Shown here piece after piece: positions 4,128 through 61,210 of a stretch of DNA of 64,000 bases. The stretch is from Diphasiastrum complanatum. Its lineage: Eukaryota > Streptophyta > Lycopodiopsida > Lycopodiales > Lycopodiaceae. Both the position numbers and the translations under genes were made by a program. Where the stretch lies: NCBI GenBank assembly GCA_029204225.1, contig CM055108.1, positions 14,639,684 through 14,703,683 on the forward strand, given 5' to 3'. Under the pieces are notes generated by a model. It was given only the letters and a program-made list of their open reading frames with translations. It searched no databases and was not told the origin of the DNA. The stretch's first letter is position 1, and each line of letters opens with the position of its first letter.

Positions 4128-5604
4128 AGCTACCACACTTTCTATCTCTCTCTTTCTCACACACACACTCACACACATTTCTATGTTTTGTTCCACATAG
4201 TCAAGACTGAAGATATATGCATGCAAAAGCCCATCCACATGTACATATTGAATTTCTTAAAGGATGTACAAACACATTAGCTTATTCATAGAATCAGAAC
4301 CACGAGCTAGGGGAAAATTATGGACTTTGCAATGTACTTGGATTTCTGTATGGAAATTAATCAAGGATTTCAGCTTGTTTGTACTTGGAGTGGTACATAA
4401 AGATTTATCAAGGGTTTCAATAGAAAATCAGCAATTAGATCTTTGTGTATGGTTTGAAATCCCCCAAGAAGTCACTTCACCAAAATCTAGATGAGAGAGA
4501 TCTCACTTACCACCCATCAACCATGGAGCAATCGGTGCCCACTCCCAAGGAGAACAAGATTGAGCTTTCTTGCATGTAGGCATCAATCAAGTTACCTCAA
4601 TTGATAGATATCAAATTTGAGCTTTCTCAAGTGATAAGGACTAATTCCATCAATAAGGGATCTAACTTGAGGAATCTGAAGGTATGAAGTTTAGTCAAGT
4701 TCAATCACTCGATGAACTATGTTCATTGACATCCACTATCAATTCATTAGATTGTAATGTTGATGTTTCACATCCACTATCAATCCATTAGATTGTAATG
4801 TTTGTGTTTCATACTATCAAGATCCATCTTATTCATGAGATGCCTTGTCATGTGAATGGAATTTTTGAAGTAGAATGAGGCCTAGTAAGCCCAAAAGTGT
4901 CCATAAACCTTAATAAAGGTAGATTTCTCTTTAAGCCTCTCTTAGCTATCAAGTGATTAACTAGTAGTAAGTGGTCATTGCAATGTCAATGTTAATTAGG
5001 ATTTGAATGATGTCTAAAAATAGTCTATTTATATAGTAGAATGTATCCTTTTTGCATTGTGAAAGAGTTGAATAATTCTCCACTGATTTGTGAATGTAAG
5101 CAATTGAGATTGTTTATGTTGTGCTTTAACCATGGTGCTTTGTACTTGAATCTCTTGAGAATTAATGATATCAATGGCTAATGTATTCTATTTTGATTCT
5201 ATCGTATTATCAATATAAATGTTGTTGTATTTTTCTATTTTTGGTATCTCTTTTATGTTTTGCTACAAAATTAAGATAGGCACATGATAATCGTGGCCTA
5301 GTATCAAGGCATTTATTTAAATTGAATGTACGCAAAAAATAAATAATTAAGTTATCTTGTTTTTGTCTAGCAAACTGACATTGTGGACAAAGCTTAAAAC
5401 ATCCTTCCATCATTTTATGAGAGTCATAAGGCCTCAACTTCAATGTTCAATCAAAAAATGATATCTGGTGGTTGGCAACATTTTAGGTATAGCAGTTCCT
5501 TCGCATTATCAATAGGCATAATCATTTTAATATGGATTTCATTTGAGAAATCTTCTCTGTGTTAATATATTGAGGCTAAATCACGTTTTTGTTTTCTCTT
5601 ATAG
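4128..5604. other. Intergenic DNA downstream of cupin copy 1
   Basis: It begins with a CT/CA-rich stretch (4138-4176) that is probably the 3' UTR of the cupin gene. The rest has no supported gene. It contains one tandem duplication, listed separately. Confidence 0.5.
4730..4811. repeat. 41-bp tandem duplication
   Basis: Two adjacent 41-bp copies (4730-4770 and 4771-4811), each starting catccactatcaat. They differ at only a few positions. Confidence 0.85.
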
Positions 5605-6690
5605 GTGATGAAAGACGACCATGACATTCTCTCATGGATATTTAATAGAACGTCATATCCTACCACCATAAAAAATAACATAGAGGAAATTCCACTCAAT
5701 ATTTTTGGAATTGGCACTTTCAACATAGAATGGCATTTAGTAGGAGATCTGAAGACATTAATACGTATATTCAATGTATCCCATGGCGCTAACTCTAAAC
5801 ACCCTTGTTTGTACTGCATGAAGACAACAAAAGACATGACAAGGAGTACATGAATATCAAGAGATCGAGAAGATCCTAATTGGAAACCCGTATTACCGAT
5901 TCCTCTTTAGATTGTTCATATCTGTACATTGCATGCAAAGGTGCATATAATAGAAAAAATAATATATCTTCACATCTTGTTTGCATGGAATTCTGAACCA
6001 AAGGCATCTGCAAAGGAAGCTATTTTCAGATTAGAGAATATGTTGTCTAAAGTAGGCTTACATAAAGGCCACGTTAAAATAAAAAGAGAGACAAGCTATC
6101 AGGTAAAACAAGAAATATTCCATGCAAGCCGAGCATTGGAGGATCCAAAGCTCGAAGATTTTTATCAAATTATTCAGGCAAACAATCCAAAATTCAATAT
6201 TCGGTTTGGAAAGAGATTATTGCTGCAACTCAAGATTTTGAAGAAGAAGGTTCTACTCGTATACACAAAAAAGAAGTTTAATAAAAATTAGACAACATGG
6301 TGAAATACTTGAGAAAAGATAAGTTATCAAATACTGATGTACAAATGATACTGAAAACAACCAGTAAATTTGTGGATGCAGTTTGAAGTGCATGGAGAGT
6401 TCATCATATAACACATTATATGGTAAGATTTCGATTTTACACTACTATAGACAAATATGTGCAATTAATTTAGATACTTTTGGTACTGATTTAAATTATG
6501 TTCTTATGATATGTAGCACATATTACGGCATCATTCGACATTCTTTGCAAGAAATAGTGGAAGTCTTAGCATATGGTCATCGCAAGGAATGGAAAAATCT
6601 CACTGGCAAGCAAGAGCGACATTTCATAAAAGCAACATGGTGGAACTAGCACAAAGAACAACTATATACTGCAACTTTTCTAATGGTTTT
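5605..6690 (+). pseudogene. Relic of an unusual DNA-transposon transposase
   Basis: One frame runs 5605-6291 with only two internal stops (5851-5853 and near 5908). Landmarks are EWHLVGDLKTLIRIFNVSHG, then HPCLYCMKT about 20 residues later, PVLPIPL, VHICTLHAKVHIIEKIIYLH, and KVGLHKGHVKI. The G-D-x-K-x-L ... C-x-x-C arrangement followed by a CTLHA-type helix recalls a DDE-like transposase family known from invertebrate, fungal and lower-plant repeats, but I cannot name it with certainty. A frame-shifted continuation (6291-6422) ends at a good donor (ATG|gtaaga), with a possible acceptor at 6516 (atgtag). Stops and shifts make it non-functional. No terminal inverted repeats were found. Confidence 0.45.
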
Positions 6691-6859
6691 ACAGGAGAAT
6701 TCAAATTCGTCATAATACAAAATCGACGGATTATAAAAAATTTCAAAAAGCATGCAAATTTATACAAGCCAATAGGCAATAGACACAAAAAGAGATTTTG
6801 TATATTAAATAAATTTTTTTACAAAGTACAATTTAACAATATCTACTCTGCTTCCGACA

Positions 6860-7590
6860 CTTTCTCTAATGAAATTTGCAACTTAGAATCATGCAACAAT
6901 TTCCTTCTTTCGTACGGATCCAAGAGCTCATAGTTTTCATGCTTACTCAGATCAACGTAGGCATCATATAATGAAAAAATGAGAGGATTTGAGCGTGGAG
7001 TTCACTGGTCCATATCCTGAAATTTTAAGTGCAATAGTTTTCTTTACAAAACCTATTTTATGCACCTTATTAAAATTATGTCCTCTAAGAAAATGAGAAA
7101 GTGCCTTGATTGCCATAATCATTGTCTCACCATGTTGATGAAACTTTGAATGGGTAACACTTATCTCATTATTTTTTGAAAAACAAATGCAGACTGAAAC
7201 TCAACAAATCTACATTTTTTTATTGTGAATTGGACAATCATCTACAGACTTGAAATCATTATGTAACTTAGTGAACATTCTATCAAGCTTAGCTTTATAG
7301 CTATGCTTGTCGAGTGCCACCAGGTCCTGATAATGAATCATGTCCTTATTCTGAGTCTGAACAAGAGAGGACTGAGCAGAGACTTAAATCTGAGATAAAT
7401 CTCAGAAAATGCTTCCACACTAGGACCCTCAGTAATTGAAGGAACAATACAAAGAAAAAGAAAAAAAAAAAATTTGAAATACTCTATATTATCACTAAAA
7501 CCAAATTCATGAAAAAAGGATAGCAAACTAGAATCAAAATTAGACATTTCAACCAAAAAAAATACAGAAAAAAGATTTTGAATATCGCTT
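6860..7590 (-). pseudogene. Unrecognised minus-strand gene pieces, divergent from the H3-like gene
   Basis: Read on the minus strand, an ATG at about 7548 opens MSNFDSSLLSFFHEFGFSDN. After a T-run where the frame may slip, other frames give ordinary-looking protein: TQNKDMIHYQDLVALDKHSY (about 7370-7310) and, near 6960-6860, SLYDAYVDLSKHENYELLDP followed by YERRKLLHDSKLQ. They are separated by frame changes, so introns or decay are needed to join them. I do not recognise the family. The pieces point away from the H3-like gene and begin just inside the left motif array, so the two look like a head-to-head pair. Confidence 0.3.
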
Positions 7591-7760
7591 TCAGGCGCAG
7601 AATGCAAGTTAGAACAAAACCTCAATGCCCTATGCACTCGAAAGAGATATCAGAAAACCGAGTATCGGATCCGAACGCGAGTACAAAGAGACAAGAATGA
7701 AAAAGTAAGACACGCTTGAGAACGGTATCGGAGTAGGCAGAATCGGTTCCAGGCGCAAGT
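7575..7760 (-). repeat. Left array of GCGCTCGAAA-type motifs
   Basis: Read on the minus strand there are about five variants of a roughly 20-nt motif close to GCGCTCGAAANCGATATTC, some in the reverse form (for example cgatatcgctttcaggcgc at the left edge). The array mirrors the one at 8185-8400 and lies immediately 5' of the minus-strand gene pieces. Confidence 0.6.
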
Positions 7761-7799
7761 AGGTAAACATATGCTAAAAACAGAGGCAAGTGTGAGCTT

Positions 7800-8160
7800 A
7801 AAATCAATATTCGGCGCAGAAATAAAAAAATTTACGTGAAAATCCGCGTCAAAAATGACCAATTTATAAAAAAATTTCTCACGTGTGAATGAGGTCCAAT
7901 AGAACATGTGTCGTTGTGTGATTTGTCAGGAATATTCTGTCGTACAGAAAATGATTGATCTGACATTTGTCATGTGCAGAATGCCATGTGTCATATTCTG
8001 ATTGGTACACATGTCCTACACCCACGTGGCCTCATTATTGAGTCATAATGACATGTACGGACTATACATGTGGACCACTTAGATGCCGCCATGTGTTCAC
8101 AACCGTTTTTCTTCACACGTGCAAAATCTATATATATATCCCCTCGAAATTTTCATTTTT
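7800..8160. promoter_or_regulatory. Candidate bidirectional promoter between facing motif arrays
   Basis: A spacer separates two facing motif arrays. It contains several ACGTG cores (cacgtg at 7880-7885, and further ACGTG near 8022 and 8117) and a TATA-like run, ctatatatatatcccc, at about 8129-8143 that would serve rightward transcription of the H3-like gene. Bidirectional use is inferred from the head-to-head arrangement. Confidence 0.35.
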
Positions 8161-8184
8161 TCTCGCAAACTTTTTGTATTTCAC

Positions 8185-8400
8185 TCCCAATATCGCTCTC
8201 AAGCGTACTCTTTGTATGTTCCGTGTCCGCCATCACTCCCTGCGCTCGAGACCGATACTGCTATACTGCCGATATCGCTTTCGAGCGCTGATCTTCTTGT
8301 TTCTTTGTTTCTCTTGTAATCTCGCGCTCGAAACCGATATTCAGTTCTTTGTTTCGCAAATTTTTTTGTTTTCATTCTCTGCGCTTGGTTTCGATATTCA
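8185..8400 (+). repeat. Right array of GCGCTCGAAA-type motifs
   Basis: About five motif copies: atatcgctctcaagcg, gcgctcgagaccgatactg, gatatcgctttcgagcgc, gcgctcgaaaccgatattc and gcgcttggtttcgatattc. One copy is a near palindrome. They lie in the presumed 5' leader of the H3-like gene and end about 45 bp before its ATG. Confidence 0.65.
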
Positions 8401-8444
8401 AACCACAAACTTTTTTTTCAAATTTACTTCTTTTGATTCTGAGA

Positions 8445-9130
8445 ATGATGGCTAGGATGAGATCCACTGCCCGTGCCATTACCTCTGTACAGCCCTCTTA
8501 TGCCTGTGTCCCCCCTGGTACTGGCCGTAGACGTGGCTGAATGCAGGTCTGGTTGAGGGAGATAAAAGAACTCCAGAGATCAACTGAATTTTTGATCCCT
8601 AGAGCTCCTTTCGGTTGATCTGTTAGGAATGTCACCCTATCACTTGGGCTTGATGTTCGTTTTGCCATGACAGCCATGTAGGCCTTACAAGGTGCTGCAG
8701 AAGACTTTCTGTCCTAGTTTTTTGAGGATTCTTGTCTTTGGCCATGCATGGTAAGCGTGTTACCATCATGCCTAAGGATTTCGTTATTCTCAGAAGACTT
8801 CGAGACCGTTATTCAGGTCTGCATGTGGATAACGCCAGCACCTCCAGAGACCTGCCTCTAGATAGAGATCAAACTTGCCAACTACCTCAAGGAAGAAAAG
8901 GAAGCAAGTTGTCTCTAAGAAAGCTGGATCTTGAAGGCCAGTTGCTTCCCTTCCTCCTAGAGTTATCCCTAGCAAGAGACCCCACATCTTCCTAAGCTCT
9001 GAATCAGATGCTGGAGAATCTGATTCAGACCCAAAATCATCCTCTCCTCCTCCTATTATTCGTCTAGCTCCTTAGAAGATCTCTTCACCAAAAGTGATGA
9101 TAACCCAAGAGGAACTTGACGGAATAACAA
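8445..9130 (+). pseudogene. Decayed histone H3-fold gene with a C-terminal extension
   Basis: From ATG 8445 (or 8448) the frame gives a short Arg-containing tail (ARMRSTARA) without the usual H3 Lys-4/Lys-9 context. It then gives clear H3 landmarks: LREIKELQRSTEFLIPRAPF (alpha-N/alpha-1), a loop-1 segment of canonical H3 length (LGLDVRF), ALQGAAEDFL and FFEDSCL (alpha-2), and after a 1-nt deletion near 8738 AMHGKRVTIMPKDF (L2/alpha-3). LIP...F, AAEDFL and KDF recall centromeric H3 (CENH3), but loop 1 lacks the usual CENH3 insertion. In-frame stops are at 8538 (TGA), 8616 (TGA), 8679 (TAG) and 8715 (TAG). In yet another frame from about 8884 a basic, then Ser/Asp/Glu-rich, extension follows (RKKRKQVVSKKAG ... 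SSESDAGESDSD). Canonical H3 ends soon after alpha-3. It is a pseudogene as written. Confidence 0.7.
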
Positions 9131-9305
9131 AAAATTTATAAATATTGTGTCTACATCTCTTTCTTTCCGTGTACATAATCTTTTTGTCAAAATTCCATAT
9201 GATCCTAATTAGGTTTATTTTGATTCTGACCATTGTAACCAATACGAGGCTTACTTAGTTAATAAAATTGATGCTCGACAATTATTTTGATTTCTTTCTT
9301 CTAGA

Positions 9306-9562
9306 TACTAATAGAAGCTATAGATCAGGTCACAAATATTGTGCAAAGTTAAAAGAGAAAACATCAGAGACTACAGATGTTATTGTAGAACCTGACAAAT
9401 TTTTTTTGCAGCATAGTATTAGTTCTGATTCTCAGGGAGTAGCTTTTGTTGTCAGTCCATTTTTTAAGGGAGCAGTGAAGAGAAAAGACGCCACATTTGA
9501 AAGGGCTGTATATTTCATCGACTGCAGTCCAATGGCGAAATTTTATTTGATTCCATATGAGA
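9306..9562 (+). CDS. Unrecognised exon-like ORF downstream of the H3-like gene
   Basis: An open segment is bounded by a plausible acceptor (tttctttcttctag, ending at 9305) and a strong donor-like gtaagg at about 9568. Its protein is well formed, with pieces such as SGHKYCAKLKEK, VIVEPDKFFLQHS, GVAFVVSPFFKGAVKRKD and AVYFIDCSPMAKF. No domain is recognised. It could be a later exon of the H3-like unit or part of a neighbouring mobile-element gene on the same strand. The upstream start is not visible. Confidence 0.4.
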
Positions 9563-9569
9563 ATAAGTA

Positions 9570-10235
9570 AGGATTGCTAGTTTGCTTTGGTTGCTTTAAT
9601 TTGGATGATTACTCTTGTTCAAATGAATTTCAATTTTTATTTTGATTATTACAGTCGGCATTGGAGCTTGAACATTCTTTAGGTAAAAATAAATAAGGAG
9701 AGAGTACCAAATTTTCTATGTGTAAAAGTAAACTCAACTGATAATACACAGAGAGAATTTGATTCTCTACTTCATGATGTCGTTTGAAAAATACTGACAA
9801 CGACGACCTCAATTGGAGAGATAACCATTAAATCTCTCAAGATATATATAATTTATCTCTGATATACATGTATTTTTTATAGTTTAAATCTATCATCATA
9901 GCATGAATAAATTTTATGTCATAATATTACTAATTTTCGTTCAATATATGCAATGTGTATAGCAAAGGGACGCTTTTAGTTGTGCATGGTTCGTGTTGTA
10001 CAATACAAAGCTCTTTTTTGAGTGGTATAATTTACAAGTCGATGTAGATATTGAAAAGGTAATATTTTGTTCATTTGTAGTTCCTTTCATTCTGATTCTT
10101 ATTTCTTTACTATCATTGTTAGCGATTTGCTCATTCACATGTTTTGTGATGACAATTCACTCTTGAGCCATACACTCTGCTGTCAATCTGACTGTTTTTA
10201 ATCCCATGCTTATCTTTAATGAATTTTTTACATCA
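9570..10235. other. Intergenic or intronic DNA, no supported gene
   Basis: AT-rich, with only short shadow frames. Acceptable as intron or spacer of the surrounding gene pieces. Confidence 0.4.
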
Positions 10236-10510
10236 TTAAAGCTTGCAACGAAATGATTCTGAAACTGCAGCATCTAGAGCAACCCATTCATCACTTTCAA
10301 AACTAGGTAATGGAATTGGGACTATTTGTCCAAAATCTCCTTTTGTATCAGGAATGTACATTGATTCATAAAAAAAGATCCCACTATCAGCTAGATCTTT
10401 TGCAGTTCTACCTTGATATTGTAGCTGTCCAATATCAGTGTGAATAGCATCTAACACACCTGCTAGAGATCCACTGAGCTCCCATTCATTTATGTTGGAT
10501 GGATATAAAT
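10236..10510 (-). CDS. Unrecognised terminal exon, minus strand
   Basis: A 275-nt open segment is preceded on the minus strand by a good acceptor (tttctcttgcag, 10511-10522) and ends in TAA. It reads LYPSNINEWELSGSLAGVLD, then AIHTDIGQLQYQGRTAKDLA, a segment with GIFFYESMYIPDTKGDFGQI, and ends SESFRCKL. This is ordinary protein composition with no stops, unlike the noise around it. I do not recognise the family. A possible upstream exon lies at about 10840-10589. Confidence 0.4.
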
Positions 10511-10588
10511 CTGCAAGAGAAAAATGATCAGATTGGCAAATCTACTAATATATATTAATAAATGACAAAAATCAAAGTATCGAAAATA

Positions 10589-10976
10589 TCAATACTCGTA
10601 GTTGTTTTTTTTGTGATCCTGACGATTGAATCCTTGCACATTTATCTCTGAATGCATATATACATGTTGGACTAGAATTTCAAAAATAGATTTTCCTCCT
10701 AATGATGTTCTGAAATCCAAAATTTTGGCCTTCCAATAAGATCGAAATGATAGTTTTGACCTTTTGGTTTTTTGAAATATTCCTCTTGATGATGGATGCA
10801 TCAAAACCCAAGAGTTTTTGAATATTTTCTTGGCACCCATAATCCATTATCATCTTTCTTGTTGAAGAGAAGCACATAATTGATTGAAGAGTACGACTTC
10901 CTTGATGGCACCATTCATTATGCGCAGGCAAAAATCTAAAACATTGAACTATGAATCTGAAAATATGTGTAGGCAA
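10589..10976 (-). CDS. Possible upstream exon(s) of the same unrecognised minus-strand gene
   Basis: Two overlapping minus-strand frames. The one at 10840-10589 has a plausible sequence (WVLMHPSSRGIFQKTKRSKL, then FRSYWKAKILDF, then FEILVQHVYMHSEINVQGF). It ends 78 bp before the acceptor of the exon at 10510-10236. No family is recognised and the start is not established. Confidence 0.25.
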
Positions 10977-10979
10977 AAA

Positions 10980-11376
10980 GCCATGAATCTAAAAATATGT
11001 GTTGGCAAAAATTTGAAACACTGAACTATTTGGCGCTATGAATTAACTCTAGTTAACCTTGTTAACCATGATTTGACAATGCATATACATTAATGGTACA
11101 TCGATTTTCTCATTTCAACCATTTGTCATATTCATTTTCAATATTTTTGGGTTTCTTCGGATTGTGATGAGCTGGAAGGGCAGGCCTCAATAACCAATAA
11201 CAATTTTCACATGTTGTCCGACGAAACAGTAATATATTTTTAAAAAAATTATATTTATATATGAGAAATTCTACGTTACGTAGAACTCTGATTTCAAGGT
11301 TTCAATTGGTCCACATGGCAACGAAAATAAGAAAAAATAAATAAACATCTTTTTTGTTGGGCTCTAAGTTTCTCTA
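10980..11376. other. Intergenic, no supported gene
   Basis: AT-rich. A 21-nt stretch containing aatctgaaaatatgtg is nearly repeated at 10956 and 10987. Nothing else was seen. Confidence 0.4.
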
Positions 11377-11740
11377 ATGTATTTGGAAGTTTTGGACACA
11401 TACACTTCACATGAAGTGAAATATGGAGGAGGCATGCAAGCATTTGTTATTCACTCACATAAATTGCTTGATTGTTGTTGTTTTCTAGAGATATCAAAGG
11501 TGGAAGCATGGAGGGATCACAATCTTTACATTCTATTTTGTTCACGTACTAGTTTCATCTTGACATGTAAATTTGATGTAAGAAATAGTGAGGCATTTAA
11601 CATGGACACTATTATCTATATCAATAATGAATGTTCCTATTTTGAGCATTACAAGACCGCATAGAGAAGGTCTATTCTTAGTATGGAGATTATTTTTAAG
11701 ATGGATCAAAGTTGTGTGGTAAAACTAGTTGAAGAGGGAG
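11377..11740 (+). pseudogene. Possible 3' end of a degraded copia-like element
   Basis: An open stretch (11377-11664) without recognisable domains leads into a purine run (gttgaagagggag, 11728-11740) that sits directly against an LTR-like TGTGAAAATTG. The position and the purine run are what one expects of a polypurine tract at the end of an LTR retrotransposon; the protein itself does not prove it. Confidence 0.3.
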
Positions 11741-12624
11741 TGTGAAAATTGTCAACTAGTTTAGTGGTCAATTTGGAGGCCAAAGTTAGATATAAAATTA
11801 GAGATACATTTCTTAATGTCAATACGACCTAAAAATAGTGTCTTTACTACTTTTATAAGTACATGAGAAGTTTTTACACTTGGTGTGTGTGGTCGAACCT
11901 AGGACCTCTCCCATTCCGGTGGGGTGCTCTACCACTGAGCTACACGTCCATTTGTGTTCCTAGAGTGTTTTGCAAGGGCTATAGCTTTGACACTTTCTAA
12001 CAGATTCCACACATGTGAAGTAAATAAAAAAACTAGTCAACAAATCTTGATCTAGATTGGCAATTTGACACACAACAGGCATTGATAATCATAAACAAAG
12101 ATCATAGACACAAATCCAAGACCATGTGCGAAGATCATCCTAATGTATGGATTTAGAATAGTGTTTGAAGTACTTGAAGTCTTGGTTTCATTTGGATAAA
12201 AGAAAATCAATGTACATGGGGAGCAAACTTGAGACTGCCAATGAGCTCCAAAAATAATCTATCTTATCACTATGGGAGCTTGGAATACATAGCAAAACTC
12301 ATTTCTTTTGTAAAGTTAGATGAATTTCCAACATGTGATAAGGAAGTTAACTCACCCTTTTTGCCCAAAAAGAAACCCCAATCTATTTCCTAGAGACTAG
12401 CTGGTCAAAATCTCATCACAAATCAAGGTGTGGGTCCTATAATGTAGGGATGACCACCAAATAGACATGGCCAACTCTCTTGACTCGACCTAGTCTACAT
12501 TAGGAGTGGATTTCCACGTGGCATCTTGACCTCACATGTGTGGAATCCACTTATTTACAATTTACATTATACTACATGGTTTTTAATCAAGCTAGATTTG
12601 CCATTTTTTTGGCAATTCTTCACA
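11741..12624. mobile_element. LTR (about 884 bp) with TGTGAA...TTCACA ends
   Basis: It starts tgtgaaaattg and ends caattcttcaca, so the ends are short imperfect inverted repeats of the TG..CA type. Read on the minus strand it is preceded by a clear polypurine tract (gaggaggag, 12633-12625), next to copia integrase relics on the minus strand. It is best read as the 3' LTR of that minus-strand element. A second purine tract abuts the other end. A tRNA-like segment lies inside. Confidence 0.6.
11887..11950 (-). repeat. tRNA-like segment (SINE head or tRNA pseudogene)
   Basis: On the minus strand there is an A-box (tagctcagtgg) followed by tagagc, and 30-35 nt later a B-box-like ggttcgaccac. These are internal RNA polymerase III promoter elements. 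The acceptor and T stems do not pair properly and no reliable anticodon can be assigned, so it is not a working tRNA gene. A tRNA-derived SINE head inserted into the surrounding LTR is the simplest explanation. Confidence 0.6.
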
Positions 12625-13660
12625 CTCCTCCTCAAATTTAGCTTGATCTATTTACAACTCTCTTGCTAGATGAATGAATGCTTTTAGAAGTGTCTAAAAA
12701 ATCTAGCTGCAAACAAGGAACTTTGAGACTCCATTAGAGAATGATGTCCATGAAGGATCTTTCACCACCTCTTAAAGGATTCCTTACAAGATGTTCCACA
12801 AATGTGTCTATTTACATGTAGCACACTTCAATAACTATACATCATTCCAAGCCATGGATTCCAAGGCATTTTGCGCACTTGAAGATACATCAATTAAACT
12901 ATTAAGTGCATACATAATATTGCCAAAGACAATTTGCCTTGCTTGATCCATATGATTGAGCCTTCATGGCTCCATCTTGATAATCAAGGTTCTTCTTGGA
13001 GTCCTCGGGTCTTGAGCTTGCTCCTTCACTTGACTTGACTCCAAAGCATCAATGAATTGAATATGGTGTTGATCCAAAGGTGCTTCTTCAAGTTTACAAA
13101 TCTTCCACTCTTGAAAGATCACATTTTCACCATTGACAAATTCTTTGGTGGAAAACAAGTAGATTCTACAATCTCTACTTGAAGAGCAAAACACTACCAT
13201 TTTTCCTATCATTGAAATAGGATAATCTTTGGTCCTTACATTGGAATGATCATGCTCCAAAAGCATGTGGACCCAAAGATTTCCAATACAAATGATGTTT
13301 CATATTTTATGACTCTATTCAAACTATCCAATGAAATTGCTTTATCAACAACAAATGTAGATTTCAAAGCATCCCATTTCATTGTCTTGTCATACAAAGT
13401 AATAAACACCACGAATCTTAAAGGTAAGAAATAAGTCACCTCATCTCTACTAATACTTTCCAAAAAGTATTCAAAGATAGTAGACTCTCCAACGCTCACC
13501 ACCCTTGCAAGATGCACACTTGAATGGACAATTTGTAGCACACTTGAATGGACAATTTGCATGCAATTTGATGAATCGGCCATTGTCATTGAGGACCTCC
13601 TTGGCACTCTCATGCTTTGAAGCTGATTCTCGAGATCTTCCTCTTTTTGATGATTCAAAT
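12625..13660 (-). mobile_element. Degenerate Ty1/copia relic (integrase region)
   Basis: Minus strand. A frame at 13658-13236 contains LQIVHSSV, matching the copia integrase landmark where LxLVHSDxxGP is usual, followed after a shift by FEYFLESISRDEVTYFLPL, which corresponds to the F-DD-x-SR-x-x-W-x-YFL region. The first catalytic Asp is Ser. A second frame (13266-12964) continues with copia-like polyprotein (YLFSTKEFVNGENVIFQEW). RT and RNase H are missing, so the element is internally deleted. A 26-27-bp tandem duplication (13514-13562) lies within. Confidence 0.55.
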
Positions 13661-20479: not shown

Positions 20480-21148
20480 ATGAAACAAATTTCATAAGTG
20501 ACATATATAGATTGACGAAGATTATAATAAAAAACAATCATATAAAATTAACAAATCTTAACGTCTTCCAAATTCGATGGTTGACCTTCTTCTTTTCGTC
20601 CAAACTTTCACAAATGATTTTCAACAATGCGTCTTTCACGCATCTTTTGTCCATCACACTTGAGGCATGTGCACCATATTTTATTTTATTTCTCTACGAG
20701 AAACAAAAATCAAGTACATGTCACTTTAGCACAATATTTTAACTTATAATAACAAAGTTTTCATGAACAAAAAAACATGCATGTTTATTACTTACCTTGT
20801 TAACTTGAGTAGTGTCTTCATCGCTGGACTGATCTGAATGTAATTAATCTCGTTGTGATAAACTGCATATATGCACAGGTACAAAACACAAATGACATAA
20901 AATTATTGTATGATTCTAATGTTTTAATTTTTAGATAGTACTATTCTTATACATTGTCGCTTATATGATTTTTTTGCATCTTCGTGCAGGCTCGAGCTCT
21001 ATGTGCATATCTCTCTTCTTTTGTTAACACGGGTATGAAAGTCCCACTTCAACATGCATTGAAGTTCTATAATCGATTTCCTTTTCTACTTCATTTCAAT
21101 ATATTAGGGTTTATTGTAATGTATTGTATGTTTATGAATGTAGTAATC
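20480..21148. promoter_or_regulatory. Divergent intergenic region of the CACTA element
   Basis: It lies between the starts of the minus-strand TNP2 gene and the plus-strand small transposon gene. It is AT-rich with no ORF of its own. It probably holds promoters or 5' introns for both, inferred only from the head-to-head layout. Confidence 0.35.
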
Positions 21149-22130
21149 ATGTCAGGGTCAAACAGTGGTGAAAGCTCGAGAGACTATGTAAAAAATTTAT
21201 ATGAATCATTAACTCCTGAGCAAAAAACACAACTGCAAAGTATGCTTAACCGAGATGAGGGTGGTCCCTCACAAGCGGCCGCGACTCCCTCCCCCACCGA
21301 AGAGTCATCCACAAATCCTTATTATGACGTGGATTCTCAAGGCAATATAATTGCCAATAGAAAAAGGTGAGTGGTTTTGGACCGACTCTATTCTTTATGC
21401 CAACGCCATTTTGGCGACAGATTATTTAGTAAATGGTCCGAACAACTTGCCGCCGATAAACGACAGGTTATTGGTACCCTTCGTGACGAATTCCAACAAG
21501 AAGAGAAATTCGAGGAGAAGGAAATTCATAAGCATATGAGCTTATGGATTAGGCATCATCGTGATATGGCACGACGAGCTTATTTAAGCCCTCCTAGTGT
21601 TCAAGAAATGATTGGAACCGTGTAAAAGCGGATGAACGAACACCAGATAAATACAAGATTTAGAAAGATGTTGCGGCCGCTAGGATGCATGGGATAGGCG
21701 ATTCTAGGTTGGGCTCAAGCGGAAAGGCGGGATTGCAAGCAAGCATAGTAAGTGAACTTACACTACTCTTATAGTTTATCTTTGATTTCATATGCTTTTA
21801 TTTTTTAATATGCATTATGACTAGTTGCTTCAAAGTAGCCCTTAATTAATTTCAAATTAAATTGAATGCATGGATAGTTGGCGGACTATGGACGTCTGCC
21901 AACTAAGGAGGAATACGAATATGCCTACAGGGAATCGTACGACACATTAGTCGACAAACTAAAGAGCGAGGTTCATCTTCCAAATGTAAGTACTAGTTTT
22001 TGTATTCATACTAATGTGGTTTGTATTTTGACATCAATTTTATTTAATTTAATACTATCAAGTATAAAATATTAATGTAGTTTGTTTGCTTGTGTTCATG
22101 CAGACTGGACGTCACGACGACGACGAGTAG
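21149..22130 (+). pseudogene. CACTA second gene, TNPA/Transposase_24-like
   Basis: ATG 21149 (MSGSNSGESSRDYVKNLYES). The open frame continues to 21370, where a single TGA (21368-21370) interrupts it, then resumes with VVLDRLYSLCQRHFGDRLFS, KWSEQLAADKR and WIRHHRDMARRAYL. A frame change at about 21625 leads to AAARMHGIGDSRLGSSGKAG and a donor at 21748 (gtaagt). A middle exon (about 21878-21986) gives ADYGRLPTKEEYEYAYRESY and ends at gtaagt. The last exon (22104-22130) encodes TGRHDDDE and a stop. This layout matches the plant transposase that accompanies TNP2 and binds subterminal repeats. The TGA and frame break make it probably inactive. Confidence 0.7.
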
Positions 22131-22685
22131 ATTAGGTTTATAAATTTTAGTTGATGTTAGATCTAGAAAGACTCGTGCGACATTAAAGCATCAATTTTTT
22201 AATACATTGATTCATATTATGAAAATATCATTAATGCAAATGATTGTGCTATATTGCCATTGCTTTTATATGTGCAATGTTCTTTTCTTAAAAATTGCAA
22301 TGTCAAATTTAGAGATGTGGATTGACGTAATAACCAATTAAGAAATCAAAACCATGTGCAATGTTGGATTTCAAAATAACAATCAATATCATATATAGAA
22401 ATCTAAATGAAATTTATGATGTGCACAAAGCAATGCAATAAAGTATTGTCATTCATAATGGACATCAAGTAATACAATAAAGTATAAAATGAAAAGTAAT
22501 TTAAGAATGAAAAGTACCTCATGCTTAGTTTGTTGTTTGATCCAAATGTTGAATGCAACTCAAAAATATTGTTTTAAAAACAATTCACGACCATCGCTTC
22601 TCCAAGAACTCAACTCCAAGAACAACCCGATAAAAATGCGCGCGCTATTTTTTACGCATTTTTTATTTTTTTTACCTAATTTGGG
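22131..22685. other. AT-rich 3' flank inside the CACTA element
   Basis: No gene. It separates the small transposon gene from the GACGTC array. Confidence 0.4.
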
Positions 22686-23075
22686 ATGTCAGAATCTGAC
22701 GTCCAAACTCGTCGGATAGACGTCGGACACACGTTGGACCTTTTTTTTTATCATTTTGTTAACAGACGTCGGATTTCGACAACTATCTGGGACGTCGAAA
22801 TCCGACGTCCAAGTATACATCAGATGGACGTCGGATGGGCGTCGGACATCCGTCGGAAAAATTTTAGCATCATTCTGTGTTTACAAACGTCGAAATCCGA
22901 CATGATTTCAGGACGTCACAATTTTGGGACGTCCACATCATTTCTTTTGCGACGTCTTTGGACGTCGCAATGCGACGTCCACGTCGACGCGTCTTTCTGT
23001 CATCGGGATTTTTGTATTCAAAATTCGGCATGTTGTGCCTGTCGAACTGCGACGTATTTTGAAGTCGTCGGATTC
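22686..23075. repeat. Subterminal GACGTCGG/CCGACGTC array (right end of CACTA element)
   Basis: At least ten copies of gacgtc with cgg or ccg flanks occur in 390 bp in both orientations, for example gacgtcgg at 22719 and 22765, an inverted pair ggacgtcgaaatccgacgtcc-like at about 22790-22812 (arms shorter than 20 nt), and several more to 23060. Dense short inverted motifs just inside an end are typical of CACTA elements and are bound by the TNPA-type protein. No CACTA terminus was found at its edge; it stops where gypsy coding sequence begins. Confidence 0.7.
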
Positions 23076-43915: not shown

Positions 43916-44225
<310 letters not shown>

Positions 44226-44599
44226 GGACTCTTCTTTATCAGAAACCACCACCCTTGATCATGCTAAAAACAAACATATATGGTTTGAGGGTCCTAAATT
44301 TTTTTTACAAACCCAACTTTTCTTCATACTTTTCAAAAATATTTTCCCACCTTTTTTGGCTGGAAGGGAGCTTCCACGATACTTCCTATGAAACCACTAT
44401 ATGTAGCCTGTTTTCAAAGGAGTTTCTTCTACTATAGAGTGAGAAGAAGGTTGGAAGAGAGGGTGCCCTCCCTAGTTTGAAATTATCTGCTTTAACTATA
44501 TGGTATGTGGTTCCGCTCGTTTTATATATGTGCATTCATCCCATGAATACGTATGATGGTTATCAACTGTTCTAAATGTTGAATGGGAATGTATGAACC

Positions 44600-44830
44600 C
44601 GTTGTCCAACGATGGATCAATGTGGATTCATACACCTTGTGTTTGGCTTGATATATACTTCATATACCTTCCGCTGTCCAACAATGGACCAGTGATGAAG
44701 CATACTCATTTCTGGAGTGCTTATTGAAGGTAGACTTGTTGTTGTCCAGTGATGGACCTGCAGCGGTCTATCATTAGCAAGAGAATAAAAATGTTGATAT
44801 ATATGGTAGGCTGTCCAGCGATGATCCAGT
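44600..44830. repeat. Regularly spaced TGTCCA(R)YGATGGACC dyads
   Basis: Four copies of a short dyad at 44603, 44675, 44743 and 44812 (tgtccaacgatggatc, tgtccaacaatggacc, tgtccagtgatggacc, tgtccagcgatgatcc), about 68-72 bp apart. The sequence between copies is not obviously repeated. Related half-motifs (atggacagcatgg) recur near 45038, 45778 and 46036. Confidence 0.65.
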
Positions 44831-46309
44831 ATTACCTTCCACATACTTCAGAATGCATGTTAATGATAGTTTTACATCATATGTGATAAGTTGAGACAGA
44901 AGCTTCATAATGACCGGCGATGAAGCACTTCCTAACTCATGAATGGTTGTTTGGTTTCAAGCTCCTTATCATGGTTATGAATGGATGATATCTTGGTGTG
45001 ATAACTACAGTTTACATTATACGTTACTATCCTTCAATGGACAGCATGGATATGTGATTGTTCCTTAAGTAAATAAGGGTTTTGTACGTACTCCAAAAAC
45101 GATGCTATGGTGTTCTCATACTTTTATCAGAACATACAACTGAGTTGTTGGCACATTCTGTTTATGATTACTATACCTCATGCTTTAACCAGTTTCGTTA
45201 TCATACTTGTGAATGACTGCTCTTGCAAAGGGAATACTACTGTATATTAGCACTAACAAATGGAACTTGCGCTCTTTGTAGCATCGAATATTACTACTAG
45301 CTTCATTTTCGGTTAGGTTCGACTTCGAGCCATAAAGCTATAAGCATCTGCACAGGTATGCACATTAAACCATTCGTTTCAGATTTGTATAAGCAGTGAA
45401 TGGTAGGCCCTCCATAAAGTATTTACTTTCTCTTTCAAAAAGGCTAAAAATAATGTTATAAACGGTTTAATACTAAGGAAGGCAAAGAGCACTCGAGGGG
45501 ACTAAAACATGGCATACTCACAAGATACCATTGCTACAATCATCCAGGTAAGAATTTTTCAAACAGTTTTCAAAATTTGAAAGCATCACATATGCTCGAA
45601 AGGTAAGGTGTCTCTTCACAAATGTATGCCATTCTAGGTGACTGTTAAAGACCCTAAGTACAGAAACTACTTGGTTTCTACTCAGTTCGACTATGTAACT
45701 TCATAAGTAGTATAATTTCTTTCTGCGTTTAATAACACCCACGCTGTCCTGAAGTAAGGGTTCTCCTCATGTTATCTTGGACAGCATGGATTTGCGTAAG
45801 ATAAACGGTTCTTACATAAGGATAAGAATGGCACGGATCTGCCCTGATACCTTGTAAAAACCATGAGAACCTCATCAATAAAATAAAACCTATCCGATAC
45901 AAGGGTCCAAAAAACCAAGGGGTGGATATGGGGCTATGATAGACGAAAGTTTAATCGTAGCTACACTATTCAAACATGGCTTGTGATAATTTATTACCCA
46001 TTCGGTTGTCATATCGGTTTATGGTGAGATACGACTGGAAAGCATGGATATGCTCAGGAGTATGGACAGTAGTGCGTGACGTTTCTTAAGTCACACGGGT
46101 TAGAATAGCATGGATTTGCTTTGACACCGACACACGTGTTCACACCATGGTTTTTAGCGATAAGCAATATATATGGTGAAAACTTTTCATACTTGTGCTA
46201 TCAACAAATTAAACTGATACGGACCAATGCCGAAAAAGTGATCAGCATGGCACTCACCCTAATACGGTAATGGAGGGGCTTGGCCTATCACTATAAAATC
46301 AACTTTGTG
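44830..46309. other. Intergenic DNA with scattered agcatggatatg-type words
   Basis: No gene found. The word agcatggat(a/t)tg occurs several times (about 45044, 45785, 46038, 46105). Otherwise featureless. Confidence 0.4.
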
Positions 46310-46590
46310 TTTGGGAAGACTGGACTGTGTTTTAAAATTCTATTTACGCTAATGAGTAGTATAACTTCTTTTGGACATGGATAACAACTAACGCTCAGCT
46401 ATGACACCTGTCTTTCCCACTGTACTAACTCGTGCGGTTTTGTGTTGTGGGATGGTGGCAGGTATCAACTGGACGTTTTGAGAGTGGTTATGCTATATGG
46501 TGCTTTACTGTACTGTATTTTACTTTTCAGCTTTACTGTACCCTGTTGGTTTATGAATAAAGGCTTCAAAGGGTTTGGTCTTGCTTTGTC
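46310..46590 (+). repeat. Dispersed direct repeat, copy 1
   Basis: Similar to 50165-50437 in the same orientation: shared blocks include acatggataacaactgac-like, tgtgttgtgggatggtggca, atggtgctttact and ttcaaagggtttggtcttgc. The ends were not resolved. Copy 1 runs directly into the CT satellite, copy 2 directly into the AT-rich repeat family. Confidence 0.8.
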
Positions 46591-46611
46591 AAGAGGAACT
46601 ATGTGAAATTG

Positions 46612-47962
<1,351 letters not shown>

Positions 47963-60544: not shown

Positions 60545-61210
60545 CAAAAATTTTGAGTTTTGAGTCTCGAAAAGTTTCGAGTTTCGAGTCTCGAAAATTT
60601 TCGAGACTCAAAACTTCGTCTCTCCACAAATTGTCTTGAAAATTTGGAGACTCTAGAAATTCGAGTTTCGAGTCTCAAAAATTTTGTGTCTCAAAGCTTT
60701 TGAGACTCAAAATATTAAAGTCTCAAAAAATTCTAGTTTCGAGTCTCAAAAATTTCGTCTCTCCACAAATTGTCTCAAAAATTTGGACACTCCAAAAATT
60801 CGAGTTTTGAGTCTCGAAAAATTCGTGTCTCAAAAATTTTGAGACTCAAAATATTGAAGTCTCCAAAAATTTGTGTTTCGAGTCTCGAAAATTTCGTGTC
60901 CTTAAAAATTGAAACCTCGAAATATACCTCGAAAATGTCTCCAAAAATTCATGTCTTGAGTCTCCATAAATTTGTTCTCCACATGAGTCTCGACAATTTG
61001 GAGTCTCCAAAAGTTGAGTCCTAAAAATTTGGAGACTCCAAAAATTCGAGTCTAGAAAAATTCGTGTTTTGAGTCTCAAAAATTTCGAGACTCCAAAAAT
61101 TTAAATCTCCAACAATTTGAGTTTCGAGTCTAGAAAAATTCATGTCCGAGTCGAGTTCATGTCCAATTCGTGTCGAGTGTGTGTTTAGTCTAATTCGTGT
61201 CTAGAAAAAT
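60545..61210. repeat. Degenerate minisatellite built on GAGTCTC/TTCGAG words
   Basis: About 660 bp of irregular repetition of units close to aaaattcgagtttcgagtct. Words gagtctcgaaaa, gagactc(c)aaaa and ttcgtgtct recur dozens of times in both orientations because GAGNCTC is palindromic. A higher-order period of about 135 bp is visible (cgtctctccacaaattgtct at 60617 and 60752). Confidence 0.9.

Follow-up and report, generated by a model that had tools for sequence, protein, structure and literature searches.

The H3-fold gene and the transposon copy around it

The window, by which we mean the whole stretch of 64,000 nucleotides analyzed (C17:14639684-14703683 in the 1.74-Gb genome of Diphasiastrum complanatum), carries on its plus strand a truncated and decayed copy of an H3-bearing DNA transposon, here called TE1, which runs from a breakpoint at position 5420 to a sharp 3' end at 11379 shared with the other copies aligned to it. 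About 1.8 kb is missing on the 5' side, the 5' inverted repeat included. The first gene remnant (5605 to 6288, plus strand) is transposase-like and preserves the motifs GDLKT (taken as the second D), PCLYC, i.e., C(2)C, and HICTLH, i.e., H(4)H; related frames were found in loci L057, L058, and L064. Comparison with other copies located an internal deletion of ca. 0.8 kb, with a 6-bp overlap at the junction (7179 to 7184). Exon 1 of the H3 fusion gene follows on the plus strand (8445 to 9566), broken by stops and frame changes in the window, open in L084 and L085, and open for 295 codons in another copy, region A2. By frame and alignment, it starts with an N-terminal tail (8445 to 8546, MMARMRSTAR...), followed by the H3 histone fold (ca. 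8547 to 8819), a linker, first basic and then Ser/acidic, that leads into a C-terminal domain (8820 to 9258, from the frames and the open copies), and the N-terminal half of this domain (9259 to 9566), with 103 open codons. Two more exons are predicted on the same strand, exon 2 with an HWSL motif (9655 to 9842, behind the acceptor TTACAG at 9649 to 9654, its intron position being common with the sister family TE3, see below) and exon 3 with the cysteine-protease-like motif QRDAFSC (9963 to 10058, by comparison with other copies). The same comparison indicated that a predicted exon 4 was removed by a second internal deletion of ca. 1.1 kb (junction at 10177 to 10183). The element also has a minus-strand gene (10239 to 10541), an open frame with no assigned family, and the related frame of copy A gave no Pfam match. 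What remains of the 3' terminal inverted repeat (11359 to 11379, plus strand) reads GGGCTCTAAGTTTCTCTAATG and has lost one hairpin arm, the intact form being found in other copies. Elsewhere in the window (43921 to 47903 and 60546 to 61201), TC dinucleotides form long arrays, and units of the GAGTCTCAAAAATTT type are arranged in a nested tandem array.

The reading frames confirmed that positions 8445 to 9130 hold an H3-fold gene, now decayed, with a charged extension. A single-frame translation of the window, with X for each stop, matched the Pfam Histone model (PF00125) with an E value of 3e-10 over profile positions 30 to 100, and the motifs quoted as H3 landmarks in a preliminary description of this DNA are all present. 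When the pieces were run separately, two fold segments matched the same model at 0.0045 and 0.0086, below the model cutoff, and the middle fold piece of 20 residues, run alone, gave no match to it. Measured against the open copy L085, the window stays in frame 1 to ca. 8737 with four stops (TGA, TGA, TAG, and TAG), continues in frame 3 at 8738 to 8866, and then moves to frame 2, where further stops lie near 8932 and 9073; two more frame changes follow between ca. 9128 and ca. 9280. The tail had been described as devoid of the usual modified lysines, and no lysine is indeed found among the first 31 residues of the window tail (MMARMRSTARAIT...). We aligned region A2 with 21 nonredundant copies, that of the window among them. 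Of these 22 rows, 21 have K at the K4 position and the window copy has R, and all 22 have A at the K9 position. In the majority sequence, which begins MMARTKSTAR..., lysine is absent between codons 7 and 32. Such a histone could not be methylated at K9 or K27.

Copy number and ends of TE1

Our analysis covers one genome and the best-scoring copies in it. Using the 686-base H3 region as a query, all 40 scored matches (the best of 1852 candidates) were 85 to 100% identical over most or all of its length, and comparing 30 matched loci with the window and among themselves revealed a larger repeat unit. The ends of this unit were reached by walking outward with queries from copies A (L031 plus L032) and B (L033 plus L034). 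A sharp 3' end, equivalent to window position 11379, was found in eight loci (L047 to L054) and a 5' end in three (L057:203, L064:240, and L061:1051). They are imperfect inverted repeats of ca. 33 bp, CATTAGAG...CTCTAATG, with 5'-CA..TG-3' termini and a short GC hairpin in each (the full sequences are 5'-CATTAGAGAAAATATGGGCCCAAAGAGGGCCC and, for the 3' end, GGCCCTCKTCGGGCTCTAAGTTTCTCTAATG). Allowing two mismatches at most, the 5' pattern occurs 1187 times and the 3' pattern 1115 times in the genome, and the same patterns read backward do not occur at all.

The position of the H3 gene between these ends was examined at 26 H3-fusion loci on contigs C1 to C4, searching within 12 kb on the proper side and strand. 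Five of them have a 5' end 4.6 to 10.2 kb upstream, in the right order and strand (among the 100 listed 5' ends), and five have a 3' end 3.0 to 3.4 kb downstream on the right strand (among the 81 listed 3' ends). Random placement would give 0.048 and 0.033, respectively, and the opposite-strand control gave none for either end. A copy free of stops (C2:45470269) is enclosed by both ends within one 8.5-kb stretch. That the H3 gene belongs to the element, at fixed distances from its ends, is thus well supported. A full-length element was also sought in copies C and D, both of which turned out to be interrupted by other repeats. Five pairs of ends lie 6.5 to 10.7 kb apart on one strand, and none of these five, paired by distance and strand, is flanked by a target-site duplication; for this reason, we have not filed the element in any known superfamily. 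The missing duplication also made us consider a Helitron end, but this reading, like that of an LTR element, was rejected because both ends mirror each other.

The flanks of copy B (L033:7045-7926 and L034:4104-5203) form long inverted repeats, 85% identical over ca. 585 bases and 68% further in. We tried them as the ends of TE1 and discarded them, since the 39 other matches of the 40 listed start at B 7927 to 7931, the place where the repeat of B ends, and several of them continue with other shared sequence. These flanking repeats also match window positions 21075 to 22832 and apparently belong to another, foldback-like element. On C1, 16 of the 37 listed 3' ends fall in a 1.8-Mb stretch close to the midpoint of the contig (C1:48431025-50241424), 14 of them on the plus strand, which looks like the local amplification of a part of the element.

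The transposase-like gene and the class of element

Upstream of the H3 gene, and on the same strand, is the gene with the motifs KLDES, GDLKT, PCLYC, and HICTLH, the last three appearing in this order in the window and in L057/L058. The set C(2)C plus H(4)H was judged by the definition in the available text of PMC12730594, which describes fungal TET/JBP-encoding DNA transposons of the CMCT clade as having C(2)C and H(3-4)H motifs, mostly CA..TG ends, and duplications of 2 to 5 bp. The last E of a transposase motif set was not located in this gene, and Pfam transposase models gave no match with the pieces used, which are decayed or partial. Six-frame Pfam scans of window positions 5000 to 12700 and of part of copy B, decayed or truncated as these copies are, gave no hAT match either. 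By its motifs and ends, the element would fit the CMCT clade, but the duplication of 2 to 5 bp is absent from the five pairs of ends, so we call it only "CMCT-like."

The fusion gene in open copies

Exon 1 of L084 and L085 reads without interruption from MMAR to a stop at the GT splice donor (377 and 376 codons, respectively) and encodes, in this order, the tail, the H3 fold, the linker with its basic and Ser/acidic parts, and the N-terminal half of the C-terminal domain; further predicted exons carry HWSLN and QxDxFSC. The extension beyond the fold had been put at ca. 70 codons, which proved wrong, as exon 1 of the open copies reaches codon ca. 376 and the predicted exons come after it. These sister copies, open over exon 1, carry the same extension, and an intact paralogue with it had been named as support for a real gene family. 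Among the 133 copies scored (the best of 8825 candidates, and so not the average), 19 are stop free over ca. 285 to 295 codons, the query included, and most of the 30 copies that were read are broken. Region A2 matched the Pfam Histone model with an E value of 5e-21.

For the C-terminal domain, Pfam listed Peptidase_C48 with the joined exons of three out of seven copies, L009, L084, and L085 (E values of 0.0066, 0.069, and 0.1; 16.7, 13.4, and 12.9 bits against a cutoff of 20.7), being the sole family listed for this domain in L009. The four others, copy C, L025, region A2, and the window, gave no such listing. Two PDB searches with the domain gave no support for C48, and neither did hhalign against SENP1/2, which returned a probability of 0.2 over 18 columns around HWSL (0.1 for the H3 control). 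The catalytic residues of ULP1/C48 proteases are His, Asp, Gln, and Cys. Alignment A2 has five rows, all of which keep the H of HW(S)L and the Q and C of Q..D..SC, and all five show N at the position of the catalytic Asp. The domain may thus weakly resemble the ULP1/C48 SUMO proteases, a similarity that we take as a lead.

Relationship to host H3 and CENH3

The host has 13 near-canonical H3 genes, 97 to 99% identical to the query. Nine of them are on C11, in two groups at 30.7 to 31.0 and 50.4 to 51.8 Mb. The Ty3 integrase and the H3 of this genome are of the plant type, as expected of a land plant. The fold of three element copies is only 41 to 46% identical to host canonical H3, and this value, together with the extension recurring in the copies read, rules out a canonical processed H3 pseudogene. 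The outcomes that would have spoken against the preliminary description, i.e., no histone match or a canonical H3 retrocopy with an extension absent from its relatives, did not appear.

The fold of TE1 resembles plant CENH3 and animal CENP-A in being a divergent H3 fold with LIP, AEDF(L/Y), and KDF residues. When L019 was searched against the PDB, CENP-A came first (1.7e-18) with H3 just behind (1e-17), and a tree of 13 sequences placed TE1 and TE3 near Arabidopsis CENH3 with weak support (0.845). The defining feature of CENH3/CENP-A is a loop 1 longer than that of canonical H3. TE1 differs from them in that loop 1 is not lengthened, in being multicopy, and in the fused C-terminal domain. The CENH3-like residues and the loop 1 of canonical length had both been noted before, and both were verified. 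The preliminary description had also suggested a centromeric or element-borne H3, of which the second part is well supported (given the copy number, the inverted-repeat ends, and the open sister copies) and the first is not supported, since loop 1 is not lengthened and the gene copies are found on many contigs. A distant CENH3 ancestry of the element H3 is possible, and the sequence comparisons would support it weakly.

No single candidate for the host CENH3, and no multi-exon gene of this kind, stood out among the 150 best of 5403 candidates retrieved with Arabidopsis CENH3. Multicopy families with long open frames prevailed among the scored H3-fold matches. A second, different multicopy H3 family is represented by L080 to L083 (C10:47288780, C156:46850, C10:2473000, and C17:36125700), of ordinary length, with AKWLQDIRSYQKSV...LARRLRRERN, a proline-rich tail, and no C-terminal extension. 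Its DNA is 89 to 91% identical between the copies compared, and its fold is 53 to 54% identical to host H3. All four loci that we read among the many 44 to 57% matches to the H3 query are of this type.

A diverged sister family, TE3

Two loci, L086 and L087, were read from the H3-fold matches found with Arabidopsis CENH3 (the best 150 of 5403 candidates were scored). They carry an H3 fold followed by a linker similar to that of TE1, with VDRTDLPTK or VDRTHLPTK (LDRTDLPTT in TE1), the same splice place as TE1, and then HWILNLISIK or HWSLNLISIK. In L087, a transposase-like fragment lies upstream in the same open frame (YNSSNNLFVDLNYLLRSIVTFYDIT versus YNNSNNLFIDINQLLTFIINFYGIT of TE1). The fold of L086, which has one stop, is 59 to 64% identical to that of five TE1 copies, with pS of 0.74 to 0.84 and pN of 0.28 to 0.32; synonymous sites are saturated between TE1 and TE3. 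The H3-like tail of TE1 is not shared by TE3, and loop 1 has one residue more than in TE1 (two more in Arabidopsis CENH3). TE3 is a deeply diverged sister family with the same architecture and first intron.

Selection on the H3 fold

We counted changes at the fold codons by parsimony on a tree of 21 copies and region A2, with expectations derived from the same mutation types. The tree used 22 of 31 sequences, the other 9 being near-duplicate or redundant. On the branch separating A2 from the ingroup, there were 17 synonymous and 8 nonsynonymous changes compared with a neutral expectation of 7.2 and 17.8 (dN/dS of 0.19). Terminal branches showed 92 and 227 (93.4 and 225.6 expected), an omega of about 1.0, and internal branches within TE1 showed 36 and 53 (25.8 and 63.2 expected), i.e., a mild constraint with a fold omega of 0.60. 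The A2 branch differs from the terminal branches with a P value of 1.7e-4, and the internal branches differ from the terminal ones with a P value of 0.04 (Fisher tests). With all 31 sequences, near-duplicates included, the signal was blurred (fold omega of 0.74 for internal and 0.88 for terminal branches). For the TE3 pair, L086 and L087, dN/dS was 0.11 in the fold and 0.52 in the rest, and in pairs within the A2 group it was 0.27 to 0.48 in the fold, 0.65 to 1.27 in the linker, and 0.54 to 0.96 in the portion of the C-terminal domain encoded by exon 1. Simple codon-position counts gave no third-position excess among 22 copies (8 of 30 having been dropped as near-duplicates), which made sense only after splitting the branches. 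C>T and G>A changes prevail, as one would expect of methylated copies.

Altogether, there is strong evidence that the fold has been under purifying selection between element lineages, at a dN/dS of about 0.1 to 0.2, the strongest values resting on few sequences. The case for constraint on the linker and the C-terminal domain is weak, and single copies decay neutrally, at about 1.0. Constraint between lineages together with neutral terminal branches indicates that the fold mattered while the elements moved and that each insert decays afterward. The H3 gene thus looks like a working transposon gene and not like a passenger.

Comparison with known systems

The closest precedent is in fungi. In Pyrenophora tritici-repentis, as described in the available text of PMC3538342, a hAT element has an H3-like gene (H3L) between its terminal inverted repeats and is found in 26 near-identical copies in the reference genome; H3L is divergent, fully matches neither H3 nor CenH3, and has ESTs. 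Pseudocercospora fijiensis has an H3-carrying hAT of ca. 9.5 kb with an 8-bp target-site duplication and hundreds of copies inactivated by RIP (PMC6710886, available text). They resemble TE1 in being amplified DNA transposons with terminal inverted repeats, a transposase, and an H3-like gene. However, the transposase there is of the hAT type, while TE1 showed no hAT match and no duplication in five pairs, and their copies are recent, being near-identical or inactivated by RIP. The fungal chimeric protein, as far as those texts describe it, joins the central open reading frame and the transposase, not H3, whereas TE1 fuses H3 to a linker and a C-terminal domain. For TE1, moreover, selection on the fold was tested, there is a diverged sister family, and the number of copies is larger. 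The fungal hAT elements are thus a close precedent, and the fusion, the selection, the type of element, the divergence, and the scale set TE1 apart. A comparable H3-carrying transposon of plants was not found in our literature searches.

Two other systems are similar in part. The VANDAL/KIU MULEs are plant DNA transposons with an accessory gene, VANC, which acts against the epigenetic silencing of their own family, and one group of them has an ULP1 domain (PMC13317346, in the portion available). The word "histone" is absent from the main text of that review, and TE1 differs from these elements by having no match to a MULE transposase in the decayed or partial pieces searched. The CMCT elements are likewise transposons with a chromatin or epigenetic protein, and TE1 shares their motif set and CA..TG ends, but it lacks a duplication in the five pairs of ends, and its accessory protein is a histone instead of a dioxygenase.

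Possible role of the element histone

Transposons are largely silenced via marks on histone tails and DNA. Our preferred interpretation, which we consider probable, is that the copy in the window is the dead remnant of a large DNA transposon, which encoded a transposase-like protein and an H3-fold fusion used on chromatin. The fusion protein would have been made while the element was active, its H3 fold would pair with host H4 or with H3 chaperones, and this pairing would place the fused C-terminal domain in or on chromatin. Its most likely use may have been to counter the silencing of the element by means of a histone without K9 and K27 methylation sites, possibly helped by a deSUMOylase. We put anti-silencing first because plant and fungal transposons carry genes of this kind (PMC13317346 and PMC12730594, as far as their available text goes). 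The TE1-type tail being absent from TE3, the fold is a firmer basis for the idea than the tail. More tentatively, and with less confidence than in the interpretation as a whole, we can propose an old superfamily of DNA transposons with a selected H3-protease-like fusion that builds or edits chromatin on its own copies and so escapes H3K9/H3K27 silencing. If true, an element's own histone, in TE1 one without the two main silencing lysines, fused to another domain, would be a direct counter-move at the level of the nucleosome, and H3-like genes in large genomes might be transposon genes instead of CENH3 or H3 paralogues, a warning for their annotation. The open copies and the two diverged families make the anti-silencing idea testable.

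Tethering of transposition complexes would be a close alternative use, and one that we regard as a serious competitor, if a somewhat unlikely one. Here, the H3 fold would dock the element proteins on nucleosomes or H3 chaperones and aid transposition with no role against silencing. Conservation of the fold together with variation in the tail is more in keeping with docking than with signaling, and the facts behind the use of the fusion on chromatin apply equally, but the listed 5' ends (a partial list) are spread along the contigs with no visible target bias.

Less probable than tethering is that a host H3 or CENH3 gene was captured passively by a transposon and multiplied as a passenger with no function for the element. 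The amplification of H3 by fungal hAT elements is published (PMC6710886 and PMC3538342), the authors of the latter suggesting, in the text available, that the H3-like genes may have drifted. The broken state of most of the 30 copies, the terminal omega of about 1.0, and the lack of third-position excess in 22 copies would agree with passive capture. Against it are the dN/dS of the fold (0.19 between A2 and the ingroup and 0.11 in the TE3 pair) and, between TE1 and TE3, the saturated synonymous sites at a fold identity of 59 to 64% and the shared intron place, and the 41 to 46% identity of three copies to host H3 is far from that of a recent capture.

A decoy histone, i.e., a protein that titrates H4 or H3 chaperones away and disturbs the chromatin of the host as a whole, seems to us slightly less plausible still. 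Read by eye on the 22-row alignment, the majority sequence keeps the key fold residues known from H3 structures, and the long extension might be hard to accommodate in ordinary nucleosome packing; the present data, however, do not separate a decoy from the other readings. Finally, a host multigene family or retrocopied CENH3 pseudogenes in an accidental repeat context would agree with the weak grouping of TE1 and TE3 with Arabidopsis CENH3 (0.845, 13 sequences) but is very improbable in view of the shared ends, a fixed geometry far above chance, and an element with several genes.
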